From NCBI GenBank assembly GCA_030524475.1, contig JAUNGO010000014.1, positions 1 to 43,040 of the forward strand: a stretch of 43,040 bases of DNA. Direction: 5' to 3'. This document shows, in pieces, positions 202 to 9,572 of the stretch. The stretch's first letter is position 1. Every line of letters starts with the position of its first letter. A program made the position numbers and the translations under genes. Origin of the DNA: Eggerthellaceae bacterium. Lineage in GTDB: Bacteria > Actinomycetota > Coriobacteriia > Coriobacteriales > Eggerthellaceae. The notes under the pieces are model-generated. The model ran no database searches. It worked only from the letters and a program-made list of their open reading frames with translations, and was not told the DNA's origin.

Positions 202-918
202 ATGTTGAACGTTGTGATAGTCGAAAACGAGAGGGAACAGGCGCTCGCGCTGGAACGCATGATAGGCGAGCACCCGCAGGCAGGCGTGTTTTCGGTGTCT
301 CACCTCGACGGCGCGGAGGCGTTGCGCAGCCGCGTGGCGCGCGGGTTGTCCGAGCCGCGCATCGACATGCTGTTCATGGACATCTGCCTCGACGACGCCG
401 ACGGGGTTGAGCTGGTTAAGGAACTCTTTCCCACGTCGGGCCTGACGCAGGTGATATACGTGACGGGCCACCCCGAGTATTGCACGCGCGTCTACCAGTC
501 GAGTCACGTGTATTTTTTGCTGAAGCCCGTGGCGCAGGCCGACCTCTTCGACGCCATCGACAAGGCCCTGGCCAACCTAGACAACGAGTCGCGCCGCCCG
601 CTCGCGGTGTCGGTTGGCGGCAACGTGATGCGCATCTCTCCTGACGACATCGACTTTGTTGAAAGCGACCGCCGCAAGGTGCGCATTCACATGGCCGACG
701 CGGTGGTCGAAACGTACGGCTCGCTTGCCCGCATGGCAAGCATGCTCCCGCCGGAGTTCATTCAGTGCCACAAAAGTTTCCTCGTGAACATGGATCGCGT
801 GGCGGAACTGCAACCCGAAGACGCCGTGCTGCTTTCGGGCGAGCGCGTGCCGGTGAGCCAAAAGCGCCGCAAGTTCGTCAAGGAATCGCTGCTCGAGCAC
901 CTTCGCGCCGGGTTGTAG
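202..918 (+). CDS. LytTR-family response regulator
   Basis: A 238-residue two-domain response regulator. The N-terminal receiver domain (about 1-125) begins LNVVIVENE, has the phosphoacceptor Asp in LFMDICLDDADG and the conserved Lys in FLLKPV. The C-terminal LytTR DNA-binding domain (about 130-235) carries the typical phrases IDFVESDRRKVRIH and FIQCHKSFLVNMDRV. Such regulators control quorum-sensing, bacteriocin or surface genes. The ATG at 202 is chosen because an AAGGTGG stretch precedes it and the protein then starts directly at the receiver fold; a TTG at 130 would add a poly-glycine leader. It heads an operon with the two kinase genes downstream. Target genes cannot be told from the sequence. 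Confidence 0.93.
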   Translation: MLNVVIVENEREQALALERMIGEHPQAGVFSVSHLDGAEALRSRVARGLSEPRIDMLFMDICLDDADGVELVKELFPTSGLTQVIYVTGHPEYCTRVYQSSHVYFLLKPVAQADLFDAIDKALANLDNESRRPLAVSVGGNVMRISPDDIDFVESDRRKVRIHMADAVVETYGSLARMASMLPPEFIQCHKSFLVNMDRVAELQPEDAVLLSGERVPVSQKRRKFVKESLLEHLRAGL

Positions 919-948: not shown

Positions 949-1863
949 ATGCCGGCGGAAATCGCGGGACTGGTGGTGCTGCTGAGCGCGTTTCCCGCCG
1001 AGATCATCTACATTTACGCCACCACGCGGGTGCTTCGTATGTCCCACGTGGCGGTGTTTTGGGCGCTGCGGCTTTCCTTGATGCTGGCCATCACCTTGAC
1101 GCGCGCGTCGTTTCCCGAGTTGGCGCCTTGGATGAGCCTGTTCGCGGGTGTGGGCATGTACGCGCTGCTGCCGCTTGTCATGTCGAAGGGGCGTCTCACG
1201 TACCGCGTGTTCGTGGTGTTGGCGTTGTTTTTGCTGGTGTCGATCGCCGACATCGTCACGACCGCGTTTTGGTTCTTGATTGCGGGCGTACCTTTGCCTT
1301 CGGGACCTGAGCTGTATGCGGTGTTGCCCGAGTTTTTAGTCTCGCGCCTGGTGCATTTACTTGTGGTCGCGCTGCTCATGGGCGTGTTTTGCGTTGGCAT
1401 GCGTCGCCTTTCGGGCGGGGAGCGCCACCATGGCGTGCGCGCCGTCATGCCGCTGCTCGTGGTGCAGGTGGCGCTCATCGCCCTGACGATTTCCACGTGG
1501 CAATACTACGACGGCAACAAAGCGGGCATCGGCGCCGTGGCGCTTGCGCTGGGGCTGGCGTGCCTGGTGGTCGACGCGTACTTGCTCTCGGCGATCGAGC
1601 GCTTCGAGCAGCAGCGGCTGAGCCGCGAGCGCGCGCGTATGCTCGAAGGGCAGCTGGACGACTACCTGGGCCGCTACGCGGCGGTTGCGGAAAGCGTTGG
1701 GCGCGTGGCGCAGCTGCGGCACGACGCGCGCAACCAGCTTCAGGTGGTAAGCGACCTTGCGGCGCGCGGCGAGCGCGACCAGGCGCGCTCGATGCTTGCG
1801 GCCTTGATAGCGCGTTGCGAAGAAGCGGGCGATGATCTGGGGAAAGTCGAGGGAGCGCAATGA
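949..1863 (+). CDS. AgrC-like membrane sensor with His box, no ATPase domain
   Basis: 304 residues. About six or seven hydrophobic segments fill residues 5-215. A short helical linker follows, then a dimerisation/phosphoacceptor helix pair with QLRHDARNQLQ, where His258 matches the phospho-His of AgrC/BlpH-type kinases (consensus LRHDxxNHL). The protein ends about 45 residues after this His, so it has no N, G1 or G2 boxes and cannot bind ATP itself. It starts at an ATG with GGGGAAAGGG upstream and overlaps the next gene by 4 nt, so the two are likely translationally coupled. I infer that it is the phosphoacceptor half of a kinase whose catalytic half is the next gene. Confidence 0.8.
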   Translation: MPAEIAGLVVLLSAFPAEIIYIYATTRVLRMSHVAVFWALRLSLMLAITLTRASFPELAPWMSLFAGVGMYALLPLVMSKGRLTYRVFVVLALFLLVSIADIVTTAFWFLIAGVPLPSGPELYAVLPEFLVSRLVHLLVVALLMGVFCVGMRRLSGGERHHGVRAVMPLLVVQVALIALTISTWQYYDGNKAGIGAVALALGLACLVVDAYLLSAIERFEQQRLSRERARMLEGQLDDYLGRYAAVAESVGRVAQLRHDARNQLQVVSDLAARGERDQARSMLAALIARCEEAGDDLGKVEGAQ

Positions 1864-2816
1864 TCGTTCGCTACGTGGCGGCGGGTGTGGTAATCGCGGC
1901 GCTTGCGGCGGTAACGGTGTTGTTCGCGCGGCGCCTTCCGCGTTACTCGCGGTTTCGCTGGTGGGCGAACGTCTTGGTTCCCGCCATGCAAGTGGTCATC
2001 ATGGCTTTTATGCTGGCAAGCTACATCGTGTCGAGCGCCCCGACGTTTTTGTATGCCATTGCGGTTGGGGCGGGCGCGGTGTGCGTGGCTGCCGACCTTG
2101 TTCTGCTGCGCGCGCTTCGGGCGGGCGAAGAGAAGGAAATCGCCGAGGAACACGAGCGCGTGCTGCGCGAGCAAGTCGAGGTGCAAGTCGAGCACTTGGC
2201 GCGCTTAGAGGCGGACGCCGGTCAAGCGCGCGAGGCGCAGCGCTTGATAACCGATCAGCTGAGGGAGGCTGAGCGGTTGCTGGACGAAGCCGGCTCGGAC
2301 GGCGAAGCGGGGGCGGCTGCGGTGACCGAGGCGGCGCGGGCGCTGGTGCCGCGTATGCATCTGTGCGAGCACCCGGTGGTCGACGCGCTTCTTGAGGCGA
2401 AGCTGCGCCTGTGCGAGGAGCGCGGCGTTCGCGTCGATTGCGTCGCGTGCGTTCCGCGCGATTTGGGCGTGTCGAACGTGGACGTGTGCGCGTTGTTCTC
2501 AAACGTGCTCGACAATGCGCTTGCGGGGTGCGAGCGCGTCGAGCCGCCCGAGGAGCGTTTCGTCAAGCTGCGCGCGAACGTGACGGGAGGATATTTGCTG
2601 CTCGAGGCGTCTAACAGCTGCGCGGCAGATGGCGCGTCGACCGGAGAGCGCACGTGGAAGGGCGCGGCACCCGGGGCCGAGGCCGACCCCTTCCGCGAGC
2701 ACGGGTGGGGAACGGTCATCCTCAAGACCATCGCCGACCGCCACGACGGCATGTACGAGTCCGAGAAGCGCGGAGGCGTGTTTCGCACCACGGTGGCGTT
2801 GAAGGTGGGCGCGTAG
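1860..2816 (+). CDS. GHKL ATPase-type sensor kinase subunit lacking the His box
   Basis: 318 residues. Three hydrophobic segments (about 4-24, 38-58, 62-88) precede a charged helical, probably coiled-coil, stretch (about 90-145) and a C-terminal HATPase_c_5 domain. That domain has HPVVDALLEAKLRL, the N box LFSNVLDNALAGC (about residue 213) and the late glycine motif HGWGTVILKTIADRHDG. Where AgrC-like kinases have the LRHDxxN phosphoacceptor, this protein reads LARLEADAGQAREAQ, with no HD pair. It therefore looks like a catalytic subunit that would phosphorylate the His258 of the preceding protein. The separate N-terminal membrane domain argues against a simple frameshift split of one kinase gene. 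Confidence 0.8.
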   Translation: MIVRYVAAGVVIAALAAVTVLFARRLPRYSRFRWWANVLVPAMQVVIMAFMLASYIVSSAPTFLYAIAVGAGAVCVAADLVLLRALRAGEEKEIAEEHERVLREQVEVQVEHLARLEADAGQAREAQRLITDQLREAERLLDEAGSDGEAGAAAVTEAARALVPRMHLCEHPVVDALLEAKLRLCEERGVRVDCVACVPRDLGVSNVDVCALFSNVLDNALAGCERVEPPEERFVKLRANVTGGYLLLEASNSCAADGASTGERTWKGAAPGAEADPFREHGWGTVILKTIADRHDGMYESEKRGGVFRTTVALKVGA

Positions 2817-2973: not shown

Positions 2974-3014
2974 AAACACGTACATAAGTTTGTAGCATAT
3001 AAGGGGTGGTTGAA

Positions 3015-3929
3015 ATGGGGGAGCATTCTCGCAATCGATTTCGCCAGTTTTGCTTGAGCGAATTGGAGGTTGATCGAAGCGACGTTACCACGGTGAGCGA
3101 GGCGTTGCGCGCGTGCGAGGCGCGCCTGTTGCTTCCCCTTGTCATGCGTGCCGAGGCGGGGTGGCGCGTGTCCCCAGACGCGCTCGACGGCGCTTGCAGG
3201 AAAACCCTTTTGCGAAAGATCGAGGCCGCGCTCAGCCTCATGGGCTCACTTTCTCCGTCGGGCGGTGCTCACGCAGAAGACGTTATTGTTCCCTGGGAGC
3301 GTTTCGAGGTTTGCGACGCGAACGGCGTGCTGCTGCGCCGCGTGGGCGCCGCGGTGCTTGACGAGGGCGACGCGGCGTCGATGCGCCTGTTGCTGCACGG
3401 GGGTGCTCGTCGCGTTGCCGACCTGGCGTGCCTCGACGTTGCCGCGAAGCGCTTTGCGCCTGCGGGCGAAGGCGACGCGTGGCGGTGGCGCAACCTTGCG
3501 CAGTCCCTTGTGCCGCTTGCGTTCGAGCCGTGGGAGGAAACGCTTGCCCGCCGCATCTGGCTTCCGCGGTCGCTGTGCGAGAAGGAGCGCTATTACGTGC
3601 TGGGCAGCGTGTTTTGGGCCATGACGTATCTGGGGTTTAACGCCGCTTCCCGCGTGCGCGTGAAAGAAGGTTCGCACGCTGGGCGCTTTTCCGAGCGCTT
3701 CGTTGAGCGCAGCGCGGAAGGTTTCGCCTCGCCATGCGGCGGGAAAGGGGCATACGCCTTTTCGCCCGAAGCGCCGCTCGGTAGCGCGTTGCCGTCCGAC
3801 GCGGGCGCGCGCTTCGATGCCGACTATCTGCATCGCTTGATGCGCGCGGCGCAGCTTCTAAACTACAACAGCTGGATCGACTTGCTGGAGGCATTCACGG
3901 CGCTCGTGCCGCTTGACCAGGCGGCGTAG
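3015..3929 (+). CDS. Hypothetical protein, family not recognised
   Basis: 304 residues, no signal peptide and no clear membrane segments. I do not recognise the family. The ATG at 3015 is preferred because AAGGGG lies 8 nt upstream; a GTG at 3006 would overlap that ribosome binding site. The protein is mixed helical, rich in Arg and Ala, with an aromatic patch (ERYYVLGSVFWAMTYLGF) near residues 195-215 and a C-terminal helix around LLNYNSWIDLLEAFTALV. It has its own promoter-like sequence and follows the LytTR operon in the same direction, so it might be a target of that system, but nothing in the sequence proves it. Confidence 0.7.
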   Translation: MGEHSRNRFRQFCLSELEVDRSDVTTVSEALRACEARLLLPLVMRAEAGWRVSPDALDGACRKTLLRKIEAALSLMGSLSPSGGAHAEDVIVPWERFEVCDANGVLLRRVGAAVLDEGDAASMRLLLHGGARRVADLACLDVAAKRFAPAGEGDAWRWRNLAQSLVPLAFEPWEETLARRIWLPRSLCEKERYYVLGSVFWAMTYLGFNAASRVRVKEGSHAGRFSERFVERSAEGFASPCGGKGAYAFSPEAPLGSALPSDAGARFDADYLHRLMRAAQLLNYNSWIDLLEAFTALVPLDQAA

Positions 3930-4294
3930 GAGCGCAAGGAGTTGCGGCGAACACGGGGCGGTGAATACGAGGGTGTTCGCCTGTCGCGCTCCGCGCCCCG
4001 TTGCGCTCCCGTCCTCCCCCCGCGCTCTCGCGTGCGCCATGCGTGTGAAACACGATGGAAACAAGGAACATACGAGCATGAAACAAAGACTGCGTATGCT
4101 GATACGACCACAGAAAGTGGGCGTCCTGCGCCCTCGCTAACTGCCCGAACACAACCGCGCGCATCAGCGCGAAACGCGCGCCGCATCGGCGTCGAGCGCG
4201 GCGTCGGGCCACGCGACGCGACCGAGCGTTGCAGCAACGAGAACGCAAAGCCCGCATTCGAAGGCACGAGTTAAATGAGACGAGGAGCATACCC
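3930..4294 (+). other. Gene-free leader before the glutamate synthase operon
   Basis: 365 nt without a convincing gene; the open frames here read as low-complexity Arg/Ala/Pro sequence. It holds three small perfect hairpins: CGTAT/ATACG (4093-4106), GGGCG/CGCCC (4119-4133) and CGTTG/CAACG (4227-4239). No known riboswitch consensus was recognised. It probably contains the operon promoter and a structured 5' leader. Confidence 0.45.
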
Positions 4295-5491
4295 ATGCAA
4301 AACAGGGAAAGCCTCAGAGAAGGAAACGTCAGGATACCTTCCGGCTGCGCCATTGCGGGCATCATGGACCGCAGCGGCGGGCGGCACGACGGAAGCGACG
4401 TCTTGAAGTCGATCGCGCTCATGCACGACCGCGGCAACGGCCTCGGCGGCGGTTTCGCGGCATACGGAATTTACCCCGAGTACAAAGACCTGTACGCGTT
4501 CCACATCATGTACGAGAACCGCGACGCCCGCACCGAGACGGAGGCGTATCTCGACAAGTACTTCATGAGCGAAAAGCAGGAGCGCATCCCCACCGAGAAG
4601 GTTGCCTCCATCAAGAATCCGCCCGACATCTGGCGCTACTTCGTCGCGCCGCACCCCATGCGCCTTAACATGAGCGGCTTGGACGAGGCGGAGTACACCA
4701 TGCAGCACGTGTTCTACATCAACGGCCAGATCGACGGCGCGTTCGTGGCGTCGTCGGGCAAGAACATGGGCGCGTTCAAGGGCGTCGGCTACCCCGAGGA
4801 TATCGGCGAGTTCTACCGCATCCAAGACTACAAGGCCTGGGGCTGGACGGCGCACGGCCGCTTTCCCACCAACACGCCGGGCTGGTGGGGCGGCGCTCAC
4901 CCGTTCACGCTTCTGAACTGGTCGGTTGTGCACAACGGTGAAATCTCGAGCTACGACACCAACCGCCGCTACGTCGAGCAGTTCGGCTACGACTGCGAGC
5001 TTCAAACCGACACCGAGGTCATCACGTACCTGTTCGACCTCCTTTCGCGCCGCCACGGTTTCTCCCAGGAAATGGCCGCCCACATCATGACGGCCACCTC
5101 GTGGGACGACATCGACCGCATGGACCCTGAGCGCGCGAAGTTCGAAACGGCGCTGCGCACCACGTACTCAAGCGCGCTTGTGAACGGTCCGTTCTCGGTG
5201 ATTCTCGGCTCCGACGAGGGACTTCTCGCCATCAACGACCGCCTGAAGCTGCGTGCTCTCATGGTGGCGGAGAAGGGCTCGATGGTCTACCTCGCCAGCG
5301 AGCAGGCGGCCATCGAGGTGGTGTGCCCCGACGCCGAGAACGTGCGCTCCATCGACGGCGGCGTGCCGTTCGTGGTGCAGCTCGACGAGGTGGCGCGCCG
5401 CAAGCGCGGCGAGTCGGCGGAGAACATGCCCTCCGAGAAGCCGTTTAAACACGAGGTAGGCGTTTTGCCGCGTAAAAGGAAGGAGGCGTAA
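4295..5491 (+). CDS. Glutamate synthase, glutamine amidotransferase subunit
   Basis: 398 residues, class II (Ntn-type) glutamine amidotransferase. It should hydrolyse glutamine and pass ammonia to the FMN synthase subunit encoded next. The catalytic nucleophile would be Cys18 in PSGCAIAGIMDRSG, exposed after removal of a 17-residue propeptide as in GltB. WTAHGRFPTNTPGWWGGAHPF and LNWSVVHNGEISSYDTN are the glutamine-binding signatures of this family. In E. coli this domain is the N-terminus of GltB; here it is a separate gene, as in archaeal-type glutamate synthases. The ATG at 4295 has GAGGAGC upstream. It is first in an operon and ends 6 nt before the next gene. Confidence 0.92.
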   Translation: MQNRESLREGNVRIPSGCAIAGIMDRSGGRHDGSDVLKSIALMHDRGNGLGGGFAAYGIYPEYKDLYAFHIMYENRDARTETEAYLDKYFMSEKQERIPTEKVASIKNPPDIWRYFVAPHPMRLNMSGLDEAEYTMQHVFYINGQIDGAFVASSGKNMGAFKGVGYPEDIGEFYRIQDYKAWGWTAHGRFPTNTPGWWGGAHPFTLLNWSVVHNGEISSYDTNRRYVEQFGYDCELQTDTEVITYLFDLLSRRHGFSQEMAAHIMTATSWDDIDRMDPERAKFETALRTTYSSALVNGPFSVILGSDEGLLAINDRLKLRALMVAEKGSMVYLASEQAAIEVVCPDAENVRSIDGGVPFVVQLDEVARRKRGESAENMPSEKPFKHEVGVLPRKRKEA

Positions 5492-5497
5492 AGACCT

Positions 5498-7003
5498 ATG
5501 CTTGACTACCTGCTTCCCCGTTACAAGGTTGTGCGCGACCGTGAGATGTGCGTTGAATGCGGCGTGTGCGAGCGTTCGTGCGCCAACGAGGTGCATCACG
5601 TCGACGAAGAGCTTGGGCGCGTAGTGGCAGACCACGCGAAGTGCGTGAACTGCCAGCGATGCGTGGTCATGTGTCCCACGAAGGCCATCGCCATCACGAA
5701 ATGGCCCCAGGTCGACAGCGGCTCGAAGAACTGGACGCTCGGCTATATGCAAGACATCGCCAAGCAGGCGCAAACGGGCGCGGTGCTCCTGGCGTCCATG
5801 GGCAACCCCGAGCCGTACCCCATCTACTGGGATCACCTGCTCCTGAACGCCAGCCAGGTGACGAACCCCTCCATCGACCCTCTGCGCGAGCCGATGGAAA
5901 CGCGCGTGCTTTTGGGCAGCCGCCCCGGCATGCTCAAGATCAACGAGCGCGAGCACAAGTTGGTAAGCCCCATGCCTCCGCAGATCAAGCTCGACGTGCC
6001 CATCATGTTCTCCGCTATGAGCTTCGGCTCCATTTCGCTCAACGCGCAAAAGTCGCTCGCCATGGCGGCGAAGGAGCTGGGAACGTACTTCAACACGGGC
6101 GAAGGCGGCTTGCACCGCGACCTTGAGCCCTACGCCGACCGCGCCATCGTGCAGGTGGCGTCGGGCCGCTTCGGCGTCGACCCGCACTACTTGCGTGCGG
6201 GTGCCGCCATCGAGATCAAGATCGGCCAGGGCGCCAAGCCCGGCATCGGCGGGCATCTTCCCGGCGAGAAGATCAACGCCGAGGTTTCCCGCACGCGCAT
6301 GATTCCGCAGGGCACCGACGCTATTTCTCCCGCCCCGCACCACGACATCTACTCCATTGAGGACTTGCGCCAGCTCATCTTCTCGCTGAAGGAGGCCACG
6401 CGCTACACCAAGCCCATCTCGGTGAAGATCGCGGCTGTGCACAACGCGGCGGCCATCGCGTCGGGCATGGCGCGCGCCGGCGCCGACATCATCGTGGTCG
6501 ACGGCTTCCGCGGCGGCACGGGCGCTGCCCCCAAGCGCATTCGCGACAACGTGGGCATTCCCATCGAGCTTGCGCTTGCCTCGGTTGACCAGCGCTTGCG
6601 CGACGAGGGCATCCGCTCCACGGTCAGCTTGGTGGCGGCGGGCTCCATGCGCAGCTCGGCCGACGTGGTGCGCGCCATCGCGCTGGGCGCCGACGCGGTC
6701 TACAGCGCCTCGGCGGCGCTTATCGCGCTTGGCTGTCACCAGTGCGGCGACTGCTCGAGCGGCAAGTGCAACTGGGGCATTGCCACCCAGCGCCCCGAGC
6801 TCACCAAGCGCCTCAACCCCGAGATCGCGGCCGAGCGCGTGGTGAACTTGATTCGCGGCTGGAACCACGAGATCCAAGAGATGATGGGCGGCATGGGCAT
6901 CAACGCCATCGACAGCCTGCGCGGAAACCGCCTCATGCTGCGCGGCGTGGGCCTCAACGAGAAGGAACTTGAGATCCTCGGCGTGAAGTACGCGGGAGAG
7001 TGA
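5498..7003 (+). CDS. gltB: Glutamate synthase, ferredoxin-FMN catalytic subunit
   Basis: 501 residues. An N-terminal two-cluster ferredoxin domain (CVECGVCERSC from residue 18, then CVNCQRCVVMCP) is fused to the FMN-binding TIM barrel that reduces the 2-iminoglutarate formed from 2-oxoglutarate and ammonia. Barrel signatures are GEGGLHRDL, GQGAKPGIGGHLPGEK and VVDGFRGGTGAAPKRIRDN. CHQCGDCSSGKCNWG near residue 413 supplies the cysteines of the family's Fe-S cluster. This layout is that of archaeal-type GltB, about a third of the bacterial large subunit. The next gene begins 4 nt after the stop. Confidence 0.95.
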   Translation: MLDYLLPRYKVVRDREMCVECGVCERSCANEVHHVDEELGRVVADHAKCVNCQRCVVMCPTKAIAITKWPQVDSGSKNWTLGYMQDIAKQAQTGAVLLASMGNPEPYPIYWDHLLLNASQVTNPSIDPLREPMETRVLLGSRPGMLKINEREHKLVSPMPPQIKLDVPIMFSAMSFGSISLNAQKSLAMAAKELGTYFNTGEGGLHRDLEPYADRAIVQVASGRFGVDPHYLRAGAAIEIKIGQGAKPGIGGHLPGEKINAEVSRTRMIPQGTDAISPAPHHDIYSIEDLRQLIFSLKEATRYTKPISVKIAAVHNAAAIASGMARAGADIIVVDGFRGGTGAAPKRIRDNVGIPIELALASVDQRLRDEGIRSTVSLVAAGSMRSSADVVRAIALGADAVYSASAALIALGCHQCGDCSSGKCNWGIATQRPELTKRLNPEIAAERVVNLIRGWNHEIQEMMGGMGINAIDSLRGNRLMLRGVGLNEKELEILGVKYAGE

Positions 7004-7007
7004 TGAT

Positions 7008-7472
7008 ATGAAGCGAATTTATGCCATCGAGTCGTGGTGCATCGACTGCAAGCGATGCGAAGTGGCGTGCAAAACGTTCCACTCCAAGAGCAAAGACACC
7101 GTGAAGGCGTTCACGCTGGAGTTCCCCACGCCGCAAAACCGCGTGCGTGTTGAGGGAACGCGCACGCTCTCGATTGCCGTGAACTGCCGCCACTGCGAGC
7201 ACCCCAAGTGCGTCGAGGGCTGCATTTCGGGCGCCATGACGAAAAACCCCAAGACGGGCGTGGTCACGTCCGACCCCGAGAAATGCGTCGGATGCCGCAC
7301 GTGCGTGTCGATGTGCCCCTTCGGCGCGGTGCGCATCGAGGACGTGGCGGAAAAGGGCATCGCCTACAAGTGCGACCTGTGCGGAGACGTGCTCGGGGAG
7401 CCGGGCGAGCCGAGCTGCGTGGCGGCATGCCCCAACCGCGCGCTCATCTACGTGGAAAGCGAGGGATGTTAA
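7008..7472 (+). CDS. Four-cluster ferredoxin-type Fe-S electron carrier
   Basis: 154 residues with four cysteine groups typical of HycB/NarH-like electron-transfer subunits: CIDCKRCEVAC (from residue 11), CRHCEHPKCVEGC, CVGCRTCVSMCP and CDLCGDVLGEPGEPSCVAACP. It should bind up to four 4Fe-4S clusters. Placed between the FMN subunit and the FAD oxidoreductase, it probably carries electrons from the flavoprotein to the synthase. It is soluble; there is no Tat or Sec signal. Confidence 0.9.
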   Translation: MKRIYAIESWCIDCKRCEVACKTFHSKSKDTVKAFTLEFPTPQNRVRVEGTRTLSIAVNCRHCEHPKCVEGCISGAMTKNPKTGVVTSDPEKCVGCRTCVSMCPFGAVRIEDVAEKGIAYKCDLCGDVLGEPGEPSCVAACPNRALIYVESEGC

Positions 7473-7473
7473 C

Positions 7474-8832
7474 ATGGCCGACCTCAAAACCGATTACCTC
7501 ATCATCGGAAACTCGGCGGCGGGCGTGACGGCCGCCGAGCATATACGAGCCAACGACGAAGCGGCGCGCGTGACCATCGTGAGCCGCGAGCCGTACCCGG
7601 CGTACGGGCGCCCGCTCATCTCGTACATGATCGAGGGTAAAACAACCGAGGAGAAAATCTGGTTCAAAGCCCCCGACTTCTACGAAACGCACCGCTTCGA
7701 CACGCTGTTCGGTCCTGAATACGAAGTGGTTGAGCTGAGCCCTGAGGCGCACGAGGCGCGCATGGCGAACGGGCAGGGTGTTGCCTACGGCAAGTGCCTT
7801 CTGGCGACGGGCTCCGTTCCCTTCACGCCGCCGATTAAGGGGCTTGAGGGCAAGGCGAACGTGAGCACCTTCATCACGCTCGACGACGCGAAGACGGCGT
7901 GGAACATGGCGAAGCAAGCAACGGAAGCGGCGCACGCGCAGGGGCGCGAAAGCCGCACTGTGGTCATCGGCGCGGGACTTATCGGGTTGAAGGCGGCCGA
8001 GGCGCTGTCTTACCACGCCGACGAGATTCTTGTGCTGGAGCTGGCCCCGCGCATTTTGCCGGCGGTGCTCGACGCGCAAGGCGCCGCCGTGCTGCAGAAG
8101 CTGGTCGCGGAACACGGCATCGAGTGCAAGCCGGGCGTTTCCGCCGCCGAGCTTGTGGGCGAGGGCGACCAGATTACCTCCGCCGTGCTCACCAACGGCG
8201 GGGAAGTGGCGTGCGACATGGTGGTGGCGGCCGTGGGCGTGCGTCCGAACTCGAGCTTGGCGGTGAACGCTGGTGCCGAGCAGGGACGCGGGCTCATCTG
8301 CGACGAAACGCTGCAAACGAGTTTGCCCGACGTGTACGCGGCGGGCGATCTTGTGCAGGTGACCGACGTGCTCGACGGCGCGCAGCGGCCGCTGGCGCTG
8401 TGGCCCAACGCCATGCGCCAGGGCAAGCTTGCCGGGTTGCACATGGCGGGCGTGCCGGGCGCCGAGCCGTACCGAGGGAGCTTCGCCGTCAACGCGGTTG
8501 ATTTCTTCGAGGCGTCGCTTCTCACGGCGGGCATCATCAACCCGGCGGACGACTCGGGGTGTGCCACGCGTATCATCGCCGAGGGCGAGCGCTATGCCAA
8601 GTTTGTCACGCGCGAGGGCAAGCTGGTGGGCTACATTCTGCTGAACCGACCCCAGAACGCGGGCATCTACACGTCTTTGATCGAAAACGACGTGCCGCTC
8701 GACACGCTTGACGCGGACATTTTCGAAGAAGCGCCCGTGAACCTCGATTTCTCGGAGCAGGTGAGGTGGGAGCGCTTGCACAAGTGCTACCCCGCCGACC
8801 GCGACAAGCGCGGCTGGAAGGAGCGTGCGTAA
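7474..8832 (+). CDS. FAD/NAD(P)H-dependent oxidoreductase of the glutamate synthase operon
   Basis: 452 residues, pyridine nucleotide-disulphide reductase fold of the NirB/rubredoxin reductase branch. The N-terminal FAD site reads DYLIIGNSAAGVTAAEHI, the NAD(P) site near residue 165 reads TVVIGAGLIGLKAAEAL, and the second FAD motif is VYAAGDLVQVTD. No redox-active CxxxxC pair is visible. It starts one base after the preceding stop. In this operon it most likely replaces the GltD small subunit, delivering NAD(P)H electrons through the Fe-S protein; the true electron donor is not shown by the sequence. Confidence 0.88.
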   Translation: MADLKTDYLIIGNSAAGVTAAEHIRANDEAARVTIVSREPYPAYGRPLISYMIEGKTTEEKIWFKAPDFYETHRFDTLFGPEYEVVELSPEAHEARMANGQGVAYGKCLLATGSVPFTPPIKGLEGKANVSTFITLDDAKTAWNMAKQATEAAHAQGRESRTVVIGAGLIGLKAAEALSYHADEILVLELAPRILPAVLDAQGAAVLQKLVAEHGIECKPGVSAAELVGEGDQITSAVLTNGGEVACDMVVAAVGVRPNSSLAVNAGAEQGRGLICDETLQTSLPDVYAAGDLVQVTDVLDGAQRPLALWPNAMRQGKLAGLHMAGVPGAEPYRGSFAVNAVDFFEASLLTAGIINPADDSGCATRIIAEGERYAKFVTREGKLVGYILLNRPQNAGIYTSLIENDVPLDTLDADIFEEAPVNLDFSEQVRWERLHKCYPADRDKRGWKERA

Positions 8833-8834
8833 AG

Positions 8835-9572
8835 ATGGCAGAGGCGCAAACGAACAAGGTTGTCGTCGAGCTGGGCACGGCCCATTTCCAAGAGGCGAAC
8901 GTGGAGGTGCGCGCGGCGCTTGAACAGGCCGACGTGGTGGAGCTGCGCCACGTGTACGCGCAGCGCTACCTGGGGTGCACCATGCCCGAGGGCAAGCGCC
9001 TGGAAATCCACGGCACGCCCGGCAACGACATGGCATGCTACATGGACGGCGGAAGCATCGAGGTGTTCGGCAACGCGCAGGACCAGATTGGCAACACCAT
9101 GAACGCGGGCGAGATCGTCATTCACGGGCGTTGCGGCGACGCGGCGGGATACGCCATGCGCGGGGGAGAGGTGTTCGTGCGCGACGACTGCGGTTGGCGC
9201 GTGGGCATCCACATGAAACAGTACGAGCAGAAGTGCCCCACCGTGGTTATCGGCGGTAACGCGGGCAGCTTCCTCGGCGAGTACATGGCGGGCGGCATCA
9301 TCGTGCTGTTGGGGCATCCGGGCGAGTATTTGGCCACGGGCATGCACGGCGGCGTCATATACCTGAAAAACAAGTTGCCCGAAGAGGACGTTCCGCAGGG
9401 CCTGGTGCTTGAGGAAGTCGACGCGGGCGACAAAAAGACGCTTGCGTGCCTGCTGGGGAAGTACAACGAGTACTTCGCCGACGACTTGGGAAAGCCCATC
9501 GAGGCAACGGGAGAGGGTTTTTGGCGCCTACGCCCCGAAAGCTCCCGCCCCTACGCAAGCATGTACGCGTAG
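8835..9572 (+). CDS. Glutamate synthase GXGXG-domain subunit
   Basis: 245 residues forming the right-handed beta-helix that is the C-terminal domain of GltB (also in formylmethanofuran dehydrogenase subunit C). Repeated turns carry the glycine pattern: GSIEVFGNAQDQIGNTMNAG, GEIVIHGRCGDAAGYAMRGG, TVVIGGNAGSFLGEYMAGG and GEYLATGMHGGVIY. It has no catalytic residues; in GltB it holds the amidotransferase and synthase domains in register around the ammonia tunnel. The ATG at 8835 follows the previous stop by 2 nt. Last gene of the operon, followed by a hairpin. Confidence 0.92.
   Translation: MAEAQTNKVVVELGTAHFQEANVEVRAALEQADVVELRHVYAQRYLGCTMPEGKRLEIHGTPGNDMACYMDGGSIEVFGNAQDQIGNTMNAGEIVIHGRCGDAAGYAMRGGEVFVRDDCGWRVGIHMKQYEQKCPTVVIGGNAGSFLGEYMAGGIIVLLGHPGEYLATGMHGGVIYLKNKLPEEDVPQGLVLEEVDAGDKKTLACLLGKYNEYFADDLGKPIEATGEGFWRLRPESSRPYASMYA

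Follow-up and report, generated by a model that had tools for sequence, protein, structure and literature searches.

The window (the whole 43,040-nucleotide stretch analysed here, contig JAUNGO010000014.1 of assembly GCA_030524475.1, from an Eggerthellaceae bacterium) carries a gene for a LytTR-type response regulator followed by genes for two membrane proteins, termed A and B, which divide between them the parts of an AgrC-like histidine kinase. The features are:

202-918, forward strand: LytTR-type response regulator with a receiver and a LytTR DNA-binding domain (Pfam LytTR, E 9.9e-21; Response_reg, E 2.3e-12)
949-1863, forward strand: protein A, putative sensor and phosphoacceptor subunit without an ATPase, 304 residues
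961-1584, forward strand: seven predicted membrane segments of A, residues 5-212 (hydropathy)
1717-1740, forward strand: H-box RHDARNQL of A, residues 257-264 (from the sequence), with His258 at 1720-1722
1860-1863, forward strand: ATGA overlap of the A stop and B start codons
1860-2816, forward strand: protein B, putative ATPase subunit with a His-less DHp, 318 residues
1872-2105, forward strand: three predicted membrane segments of B, residues 5-82 (hydropathy)
2142-2348, forward strand: coiled coil and DHp-like helices of B without a phospho-His (profile alignment to A, column counts and model helices)
2355-2804, forward strand: GHKL ATPase domain of B (Pfam HATPase_c_5, structural match to 4bxi and invariant ATP-site residues)

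The ATG of the regulator, read from the sequence, is at 202. A run of about 11 G residues lies just upstream (about 134-145); G tracts can change length between cells, and this run might affect expression of the operon. The A and B reading frames share the nucleotides ATGA, which is the four-nucleotide overlap recorded in an earlier sequence-only reading of this DNA.

The same reading had A ending after an AgrC-like His box with no ATPase domain, and this is upheld. The sole Pfam match of A is to the SPOB_a phosphoacceptor helix domain (residues 255-292, E 5e-4, below the cut-off), and the chain stops 46 residues past His258, which leaves no room for an ATPase. A HATPase fold hidden in A, named in that reading as one thing that would refute a divided kinase, was looked for and is ruled out by the short tail together with the absence of any Pfam ATPase match. 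Within the H-box, R257, H258, D259 and N262 are invariant among 29 aligned A proteins, and the phospho-position is His in all 72 A sequences (the 72 A and 59 B sequences count both halves of six fusions).

Protein B matches HATPase_c_5 above the curated cut-off (residues 206-314, E 2.5e-10), with an N-box (NVLDNA) at residue 215 and a G-box (HGWG) at 281. Residues N215, N219, N252, G282 and G284 are invariant in 59 of 59 B sequences; this invariance, together with that of the A H-box, excludes chance. The earlier description of B as a protein with its own membrane segments and a GHKL ATPase domain thus stands, but not as a protein composed of these alone, because a dimerisation domain (DHp) lacking its His had been overlooked. 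Residues ~95-163 of B form a DHp-like helical pair homologous to the DHp of A. Compared pairwise, the two proteins show only weak similarity, at 23% identity (E 4e-4 to 6e-4), but their family profiles align over A residues 142-297 and B residues 11-164 (Prob 98.8, E 5e-17). Judged by these alignments, the region of paralogy comprises the DHp and the membrane segments just before it, the last ones of each protein.

The phospho-His column of the B DHp is occupied by Arg128 (2241-2243). His is absent from this column in 55 of the 57 alignable B homologues, which instead carry Glu (17), Arg (12), Ala (10), Asp (6), Thr (4), Gln (3), Gly (2) or Val (1), with gaps in two further sequences; the two B proteins that do have His there lack the Asp and Asn that should follow it. 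At the same column all 57 single-chain control kinases have His, the controls being mostly Firmicutes proteins retrieved by similarity to B, plus the source genome's own ordinary kinase (contig C64). Ordinary kinases of the order Coriobacteriales mostly place an H-box ~87 residues before the N-box. In a quick tree the B proteins form one clade separate from the single-chain kinases (SH-aLRT 97). By their sequences, then, each protein appears to have retained what the other lost: A has the His without an ATPase, and B has the ATP site without the His.

The predicted structure of the source-locus B protein (pLDDT 86, pTM 0.52) has helices at residues 62-143 and 148-161 that cover the DHp-like region, and its best high-quality structural match is the AgrC ATP-binding domain (4bxi; Z 16.5, RMSD of 2.3 over 130 residues). 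The AgrC cytoplasmic kinase (6e95_A) scores similarly (Z 16.6 over 225 residues) with an RMSD of 10.2, so that the arrangement of domains is not closely matched. An AlphaFold model of a natural A-B fusion (pLDDT 82, pTM 0.63), which was not used as evidence of A-B contact, has AgrC 6e52_A as its top match (model residues 395-642; Z 17.0, RMSD of 5.8 over 181 residues). Two alignments mixing A, B and fused sequences (A4 and A5) were discarded, since A rows or their DHp part sat on the B half, and the rows of a further alignment (A9) were inspected one by one before folding.

The sequence-only reading had proposed a search for co-occurring pairs, and in the Coriobacteriales A and B are found together in about 60 of 395 genomes, nearly always adjacent. 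With thresholds chosen by eye after inspection of the scores, strong A matches occur in 68 of these genomes, strong B matches in 62 and both in 58, leaving 10 with A only and 4 with B only. Most of these exceptions are explained by contig edges or incomplete genomes, by a fusion, or by B copies too divergent to pass the threshold. The corresponding Fisher p of 7e-54 ignores shared ancestry and is not to be read as a probability. Within the Eggerthellaceae (138 genomes), A matches occur in 39 and B matches in 59; some of the B matches are ordinary kinases that score weakly. The A/B family is spread over tens of genera in three families of the order, with Eggerthella sinensis, Rubneribacter badeniensis, Adlercreutzia species, Senegalimassilia anaerobia, Collinsella tanakaei and Olsenella uli among the named carriers. 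Among 396 genomes drawn from across the phylum, only those of the Coriobacteriales give strong matches to A. An A/B-like pair outside the order, in which A carries NHDIRN, is present in Bifidobacterium phasiani (locus L192, 4298-6732) and was possibly acquired by transfer.

At the loci examined, an A gene lies within 400 nt on the same strand for 45 of 50 unfused B genes. For two of the remainder (L079 and L092) A is adjacent by genome-search coordinates, and at L149 the regulator alone stands between A and B; the B gene of L103 is at a contig edge, and at L166 the only nearby A is a fragment on the opposite strand. The commonest A-B junction in relatives, accounting for 20 of 31, is again a 4-nt overlap. 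A LytTR-type regulator adjoins nearly all of the A/B loci examined in relatives. The other neighbours vary between genera (enolase, CbiQ, ribosomal L17, RpoA, M20 peptidase, DmsC, FtsX) and do not reveal the target of the system. An M20-family peptidase gene adjoins the A/B locus in two genera (L067, 3624-4826; L094, 7266-8522). Directly 3' of B in the window, 3006-3929 encodes a 307-residue protein to which neither Pfam nor NCBIfam gives an assignment above cut-off, and the genus-mates have other genes at this position.

In several relatives A and B are naturally fused, among them Adlercreutzia faecimuris, Enterorhabdus sp. P55, A. equolifaciens DFI.6.87 and Candidatus Gordonibacter avicola, the last with a shortened A part and a stop upstream, as well as a genome of a second family. 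The tree requires at least three changes between the fused and split states, with L103, counted as split, possibly representing half of a fusion. The fusions retain the His of A together with the pseudo-DHp, ATPase and membrane segments of B. Hydropathy places two hydrophobic segments before the ATPase half in most fusions and three in most split B proteins; two are what would be expected if the ATPase must stay cytoplasmic after the cytoplasmic end of A. Single-gene homologues, which the sequence-only reading had offered as a sign that the split is a mutation, thus do exist, but they keep both DHp regions and so are not the ordinary intact kinase from which a pair could have broken. Fusion and co-occurrence show functional linkage between A and B, not their stoichiometry.

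We propose that A and B probably act as an obligate, asymmetric heterodimer in place of the usual AgrC-type homodimer, and that within it the ATPase of B phosphorylates His258 of A, which in turn feeds the LytTR regulator. A would supply the main seven-segment sensor and the only phosphoacceptor His, while B would supply the only ATPase and a His-less DHp that serves as dimerisation partner, the latter explaining how A and B could meet. A signal sensed mainly by the membrane part of A would rearrange the A-B DHp bundle, allowing the B ATPase to phosphorylate His258 across the subunit boundary. The phosphate would then pass to the aspartate of the regulator encoded upstream (202-918), its likely recipient, and change transcription. 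We infer the physical contact between A and B, the direction of phosphoryl flow, the identity of the recipient and the entry of the signal through A. That phosphoacceptor and ATPase reside on two membrane proteins, which would need to meet and phosphorylate in trans, had been proposed in the sequence-only reading, and this gains support here from reciprocal conservation, from near-perfect co-occurrence and adjacency in ~60 genomes, from the fusions, from the paralogous DHp and from published truncations of FasB and FasC.

AgrC is a single polypeptide that acts as a homodimer. As in this HPK10-type kinase, the locus combines a multi-membrane-segment N-terminal sensor (seven predicted segments in A, three in B), an RHDxxN H-box within a SPOB_a-like DHp (in A, not in B), a HATPase_c_5 domain (in B, absent from A) and an adjacent LytTR regulator that is kept in relatives. 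Unlike AgrC, the functions are distributed over two proteins, with the phosphoacceptor and the ATPase each on a chain that lacks the other; H-box and ATPase share a polypeptide only in the A-B fusions of relatives, which have two DHp regions. The nearest likeness is to FasB/FasC/FasA of group A Streptococcus, which comprises two AgrC-like membrane kinases encoded in one operon plus a LytTR/ComE-type regulator (PMC12675982). A FasC truncation comprising the membrane part and DHp (residues 1-286, ending 40 residues after His246) and a FasB truncation comprising the DHp and ATPase (216-448) each complement their mutants, and FasC His246 is required (PMC12675982). By comparison with the published description, the A-B pair looks like an evolved counterpart of the FasBC minimal system: FasB and FasC are each complete, with DHp and HATPase, and were cut down in the laboratory, whereas A and B lost their domains in nature, and B has also lost its phospho-His.

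A rather unlikely alternative makes A a phosphotransfer or phosphatase protein of the HPt or Spo0B kind that dimerises with itself. B would then be a homodimer in its own right that meets A only briefly to phosphorylate it, in the manner of CheA4 acting on CheA3, and the DHp domains would form no stable heterodimer. In CheA3/CheA4 of Rhodobacter sphaeroides the phosphoacceptor and ATPase are likewise on separate proteins, and cross-chain phosphorylation takes place when the ATPase domain transiently touches a phosphoacceptor domain that belongs to another protein (PMC3591291). Archaeal DHp proteins without an ATPase are also on record and have been suggested to act as phosphatases (PMC5847659). 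The two CheA proteins are, however, soluble chemotaxis kinases with HPt (P1) and P5 domains, and have neither membrane parts nor a paralogous DHp pair; no CheA-type HPt (P1), P3/P4 or P5 domain was found in A or B, whose only plausible Pfam domains are SPOB_a and HATPase_c_5, respectively. Independent homodimers also fit poorly with the retention by B of its own DHp, paralogous to that of A, with natural fusions that put exactly one DHp of each type in one chain, and with the closest tested case, FasB and FasC, which in two-hybrid assays interact mutually and not with themselves (PMC12675982).

It is much less probable still that B is phosphorylated on its own His171, just before the ATPase core, with A an accessory sensor only. 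Ahead of the ATPase, no column of B other than residue 171 is rich in His (39 of 59 sequences have it there), and the FasB study left room for phosphorylation at His284 (PMC12675982). However, 18 of 59 B proteins have Asn at residue 171, a position often filled by Asn or Asp in ordinary kinases, and the H-box of A is conserved far better. His171 was on these grounds rejected as a substitute phospho-His. Breakage of an ordinary kinase gene, through a nonsense mutation or a frameshift, would likewise give a decaying locus with neighbouring ORFs that complement each other, but a recent event of this kind is ruled out, with next to no probability left to it, by the second DHp and the separate membrane segments of B, which an ordinary kinase lacks, and by conservation of the split form, active-site residues included, across three families and tens of genera. 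Both genus-mates share the A-B arrangement, and no ordinary one-ORF kinase with one DHp and one ATPase was found at the locus in close relatives. The wide conservation of the pair makes the split look like a working design and not a broken gene.

The asymmetric A-B heterodimer would have arisen when an AgrC-like kinase gene was duplicated in tandem and the two copies then underwent reciprocal loss. In several genera there are loci (L084, L069, L071, L082, L067, L163, L155, L156, L159 and L160) with two to four A genes next to one or two B genes, which suggests that an ATPase subunit may have several sensors. It is conceivable, although we lean against it, that one B ATPase serves several interchangeable A sensors in the same cell. 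If so, a shared kinase engine would be plugged into different receptors in a combinatorial, receptor-like two-component architecture.

Both split kinases and a heterodimeric AgrC-like pair (FasBC) are already known. The HK1/HK2/TcrA locus of Mycobacterium tuberculosis (Rv0600c-Rv0602c) encodes an ATPase protein, a phosphoacceptor protein and a regulator, and its two kinases cooperate with TcrA; kinases and regulator appear to be of a different family from those of the A/B locus. RetS and GacS of Pseudomonas aeruginosa, represented by 7n0e among the structural matches, are two sensor kinases that heterodimerise through their DHp; both are complete proteins, and RetS inhibits GacS instead of sharing the labour of one kinase. 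CheA3/CheA4 aside, a kinase split over two genes whose products interact in two-hybrid assays is found in Hik36/Hik43-Rre6 of Synechocystis (PMC7656254), although that is a CheA-like pilus system (split pilL) and not AgrC-like. In the literature searched, mostly outside subscription journals, we came across no account of the A/B family, nor of any conserved pair of membrane proteins that show reciprocal loss.

Sensor kinases are usually symmetric homodimers, in which a single active site is hard to study. A/B would be a conserved kinase that is asymmetric, having a single phospho-site and a single ATPase, and in which trans-phosphorylation, signal asymmetry and receptor exchange become directly testable. 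A-type proteins occur widely among common gut bacteria (Eggerthella, Adlercreutzia, Gordonibacter, Collinsella and Olsenella); having no kinase domain, and with their only recognisable domain below the Pfam cut-off, they are easily missed as two-component proteins. Elsewhere in the window, ORFs at 4294-9572 resemble, from their translations, the amidotransferase, FMN-binding and GXGXG-type parts of a glutamate synthase on separate proteins, with genes for a ferredoxin-like protein and a flavoprotein in between, and look like another enzyme divided over several genes.
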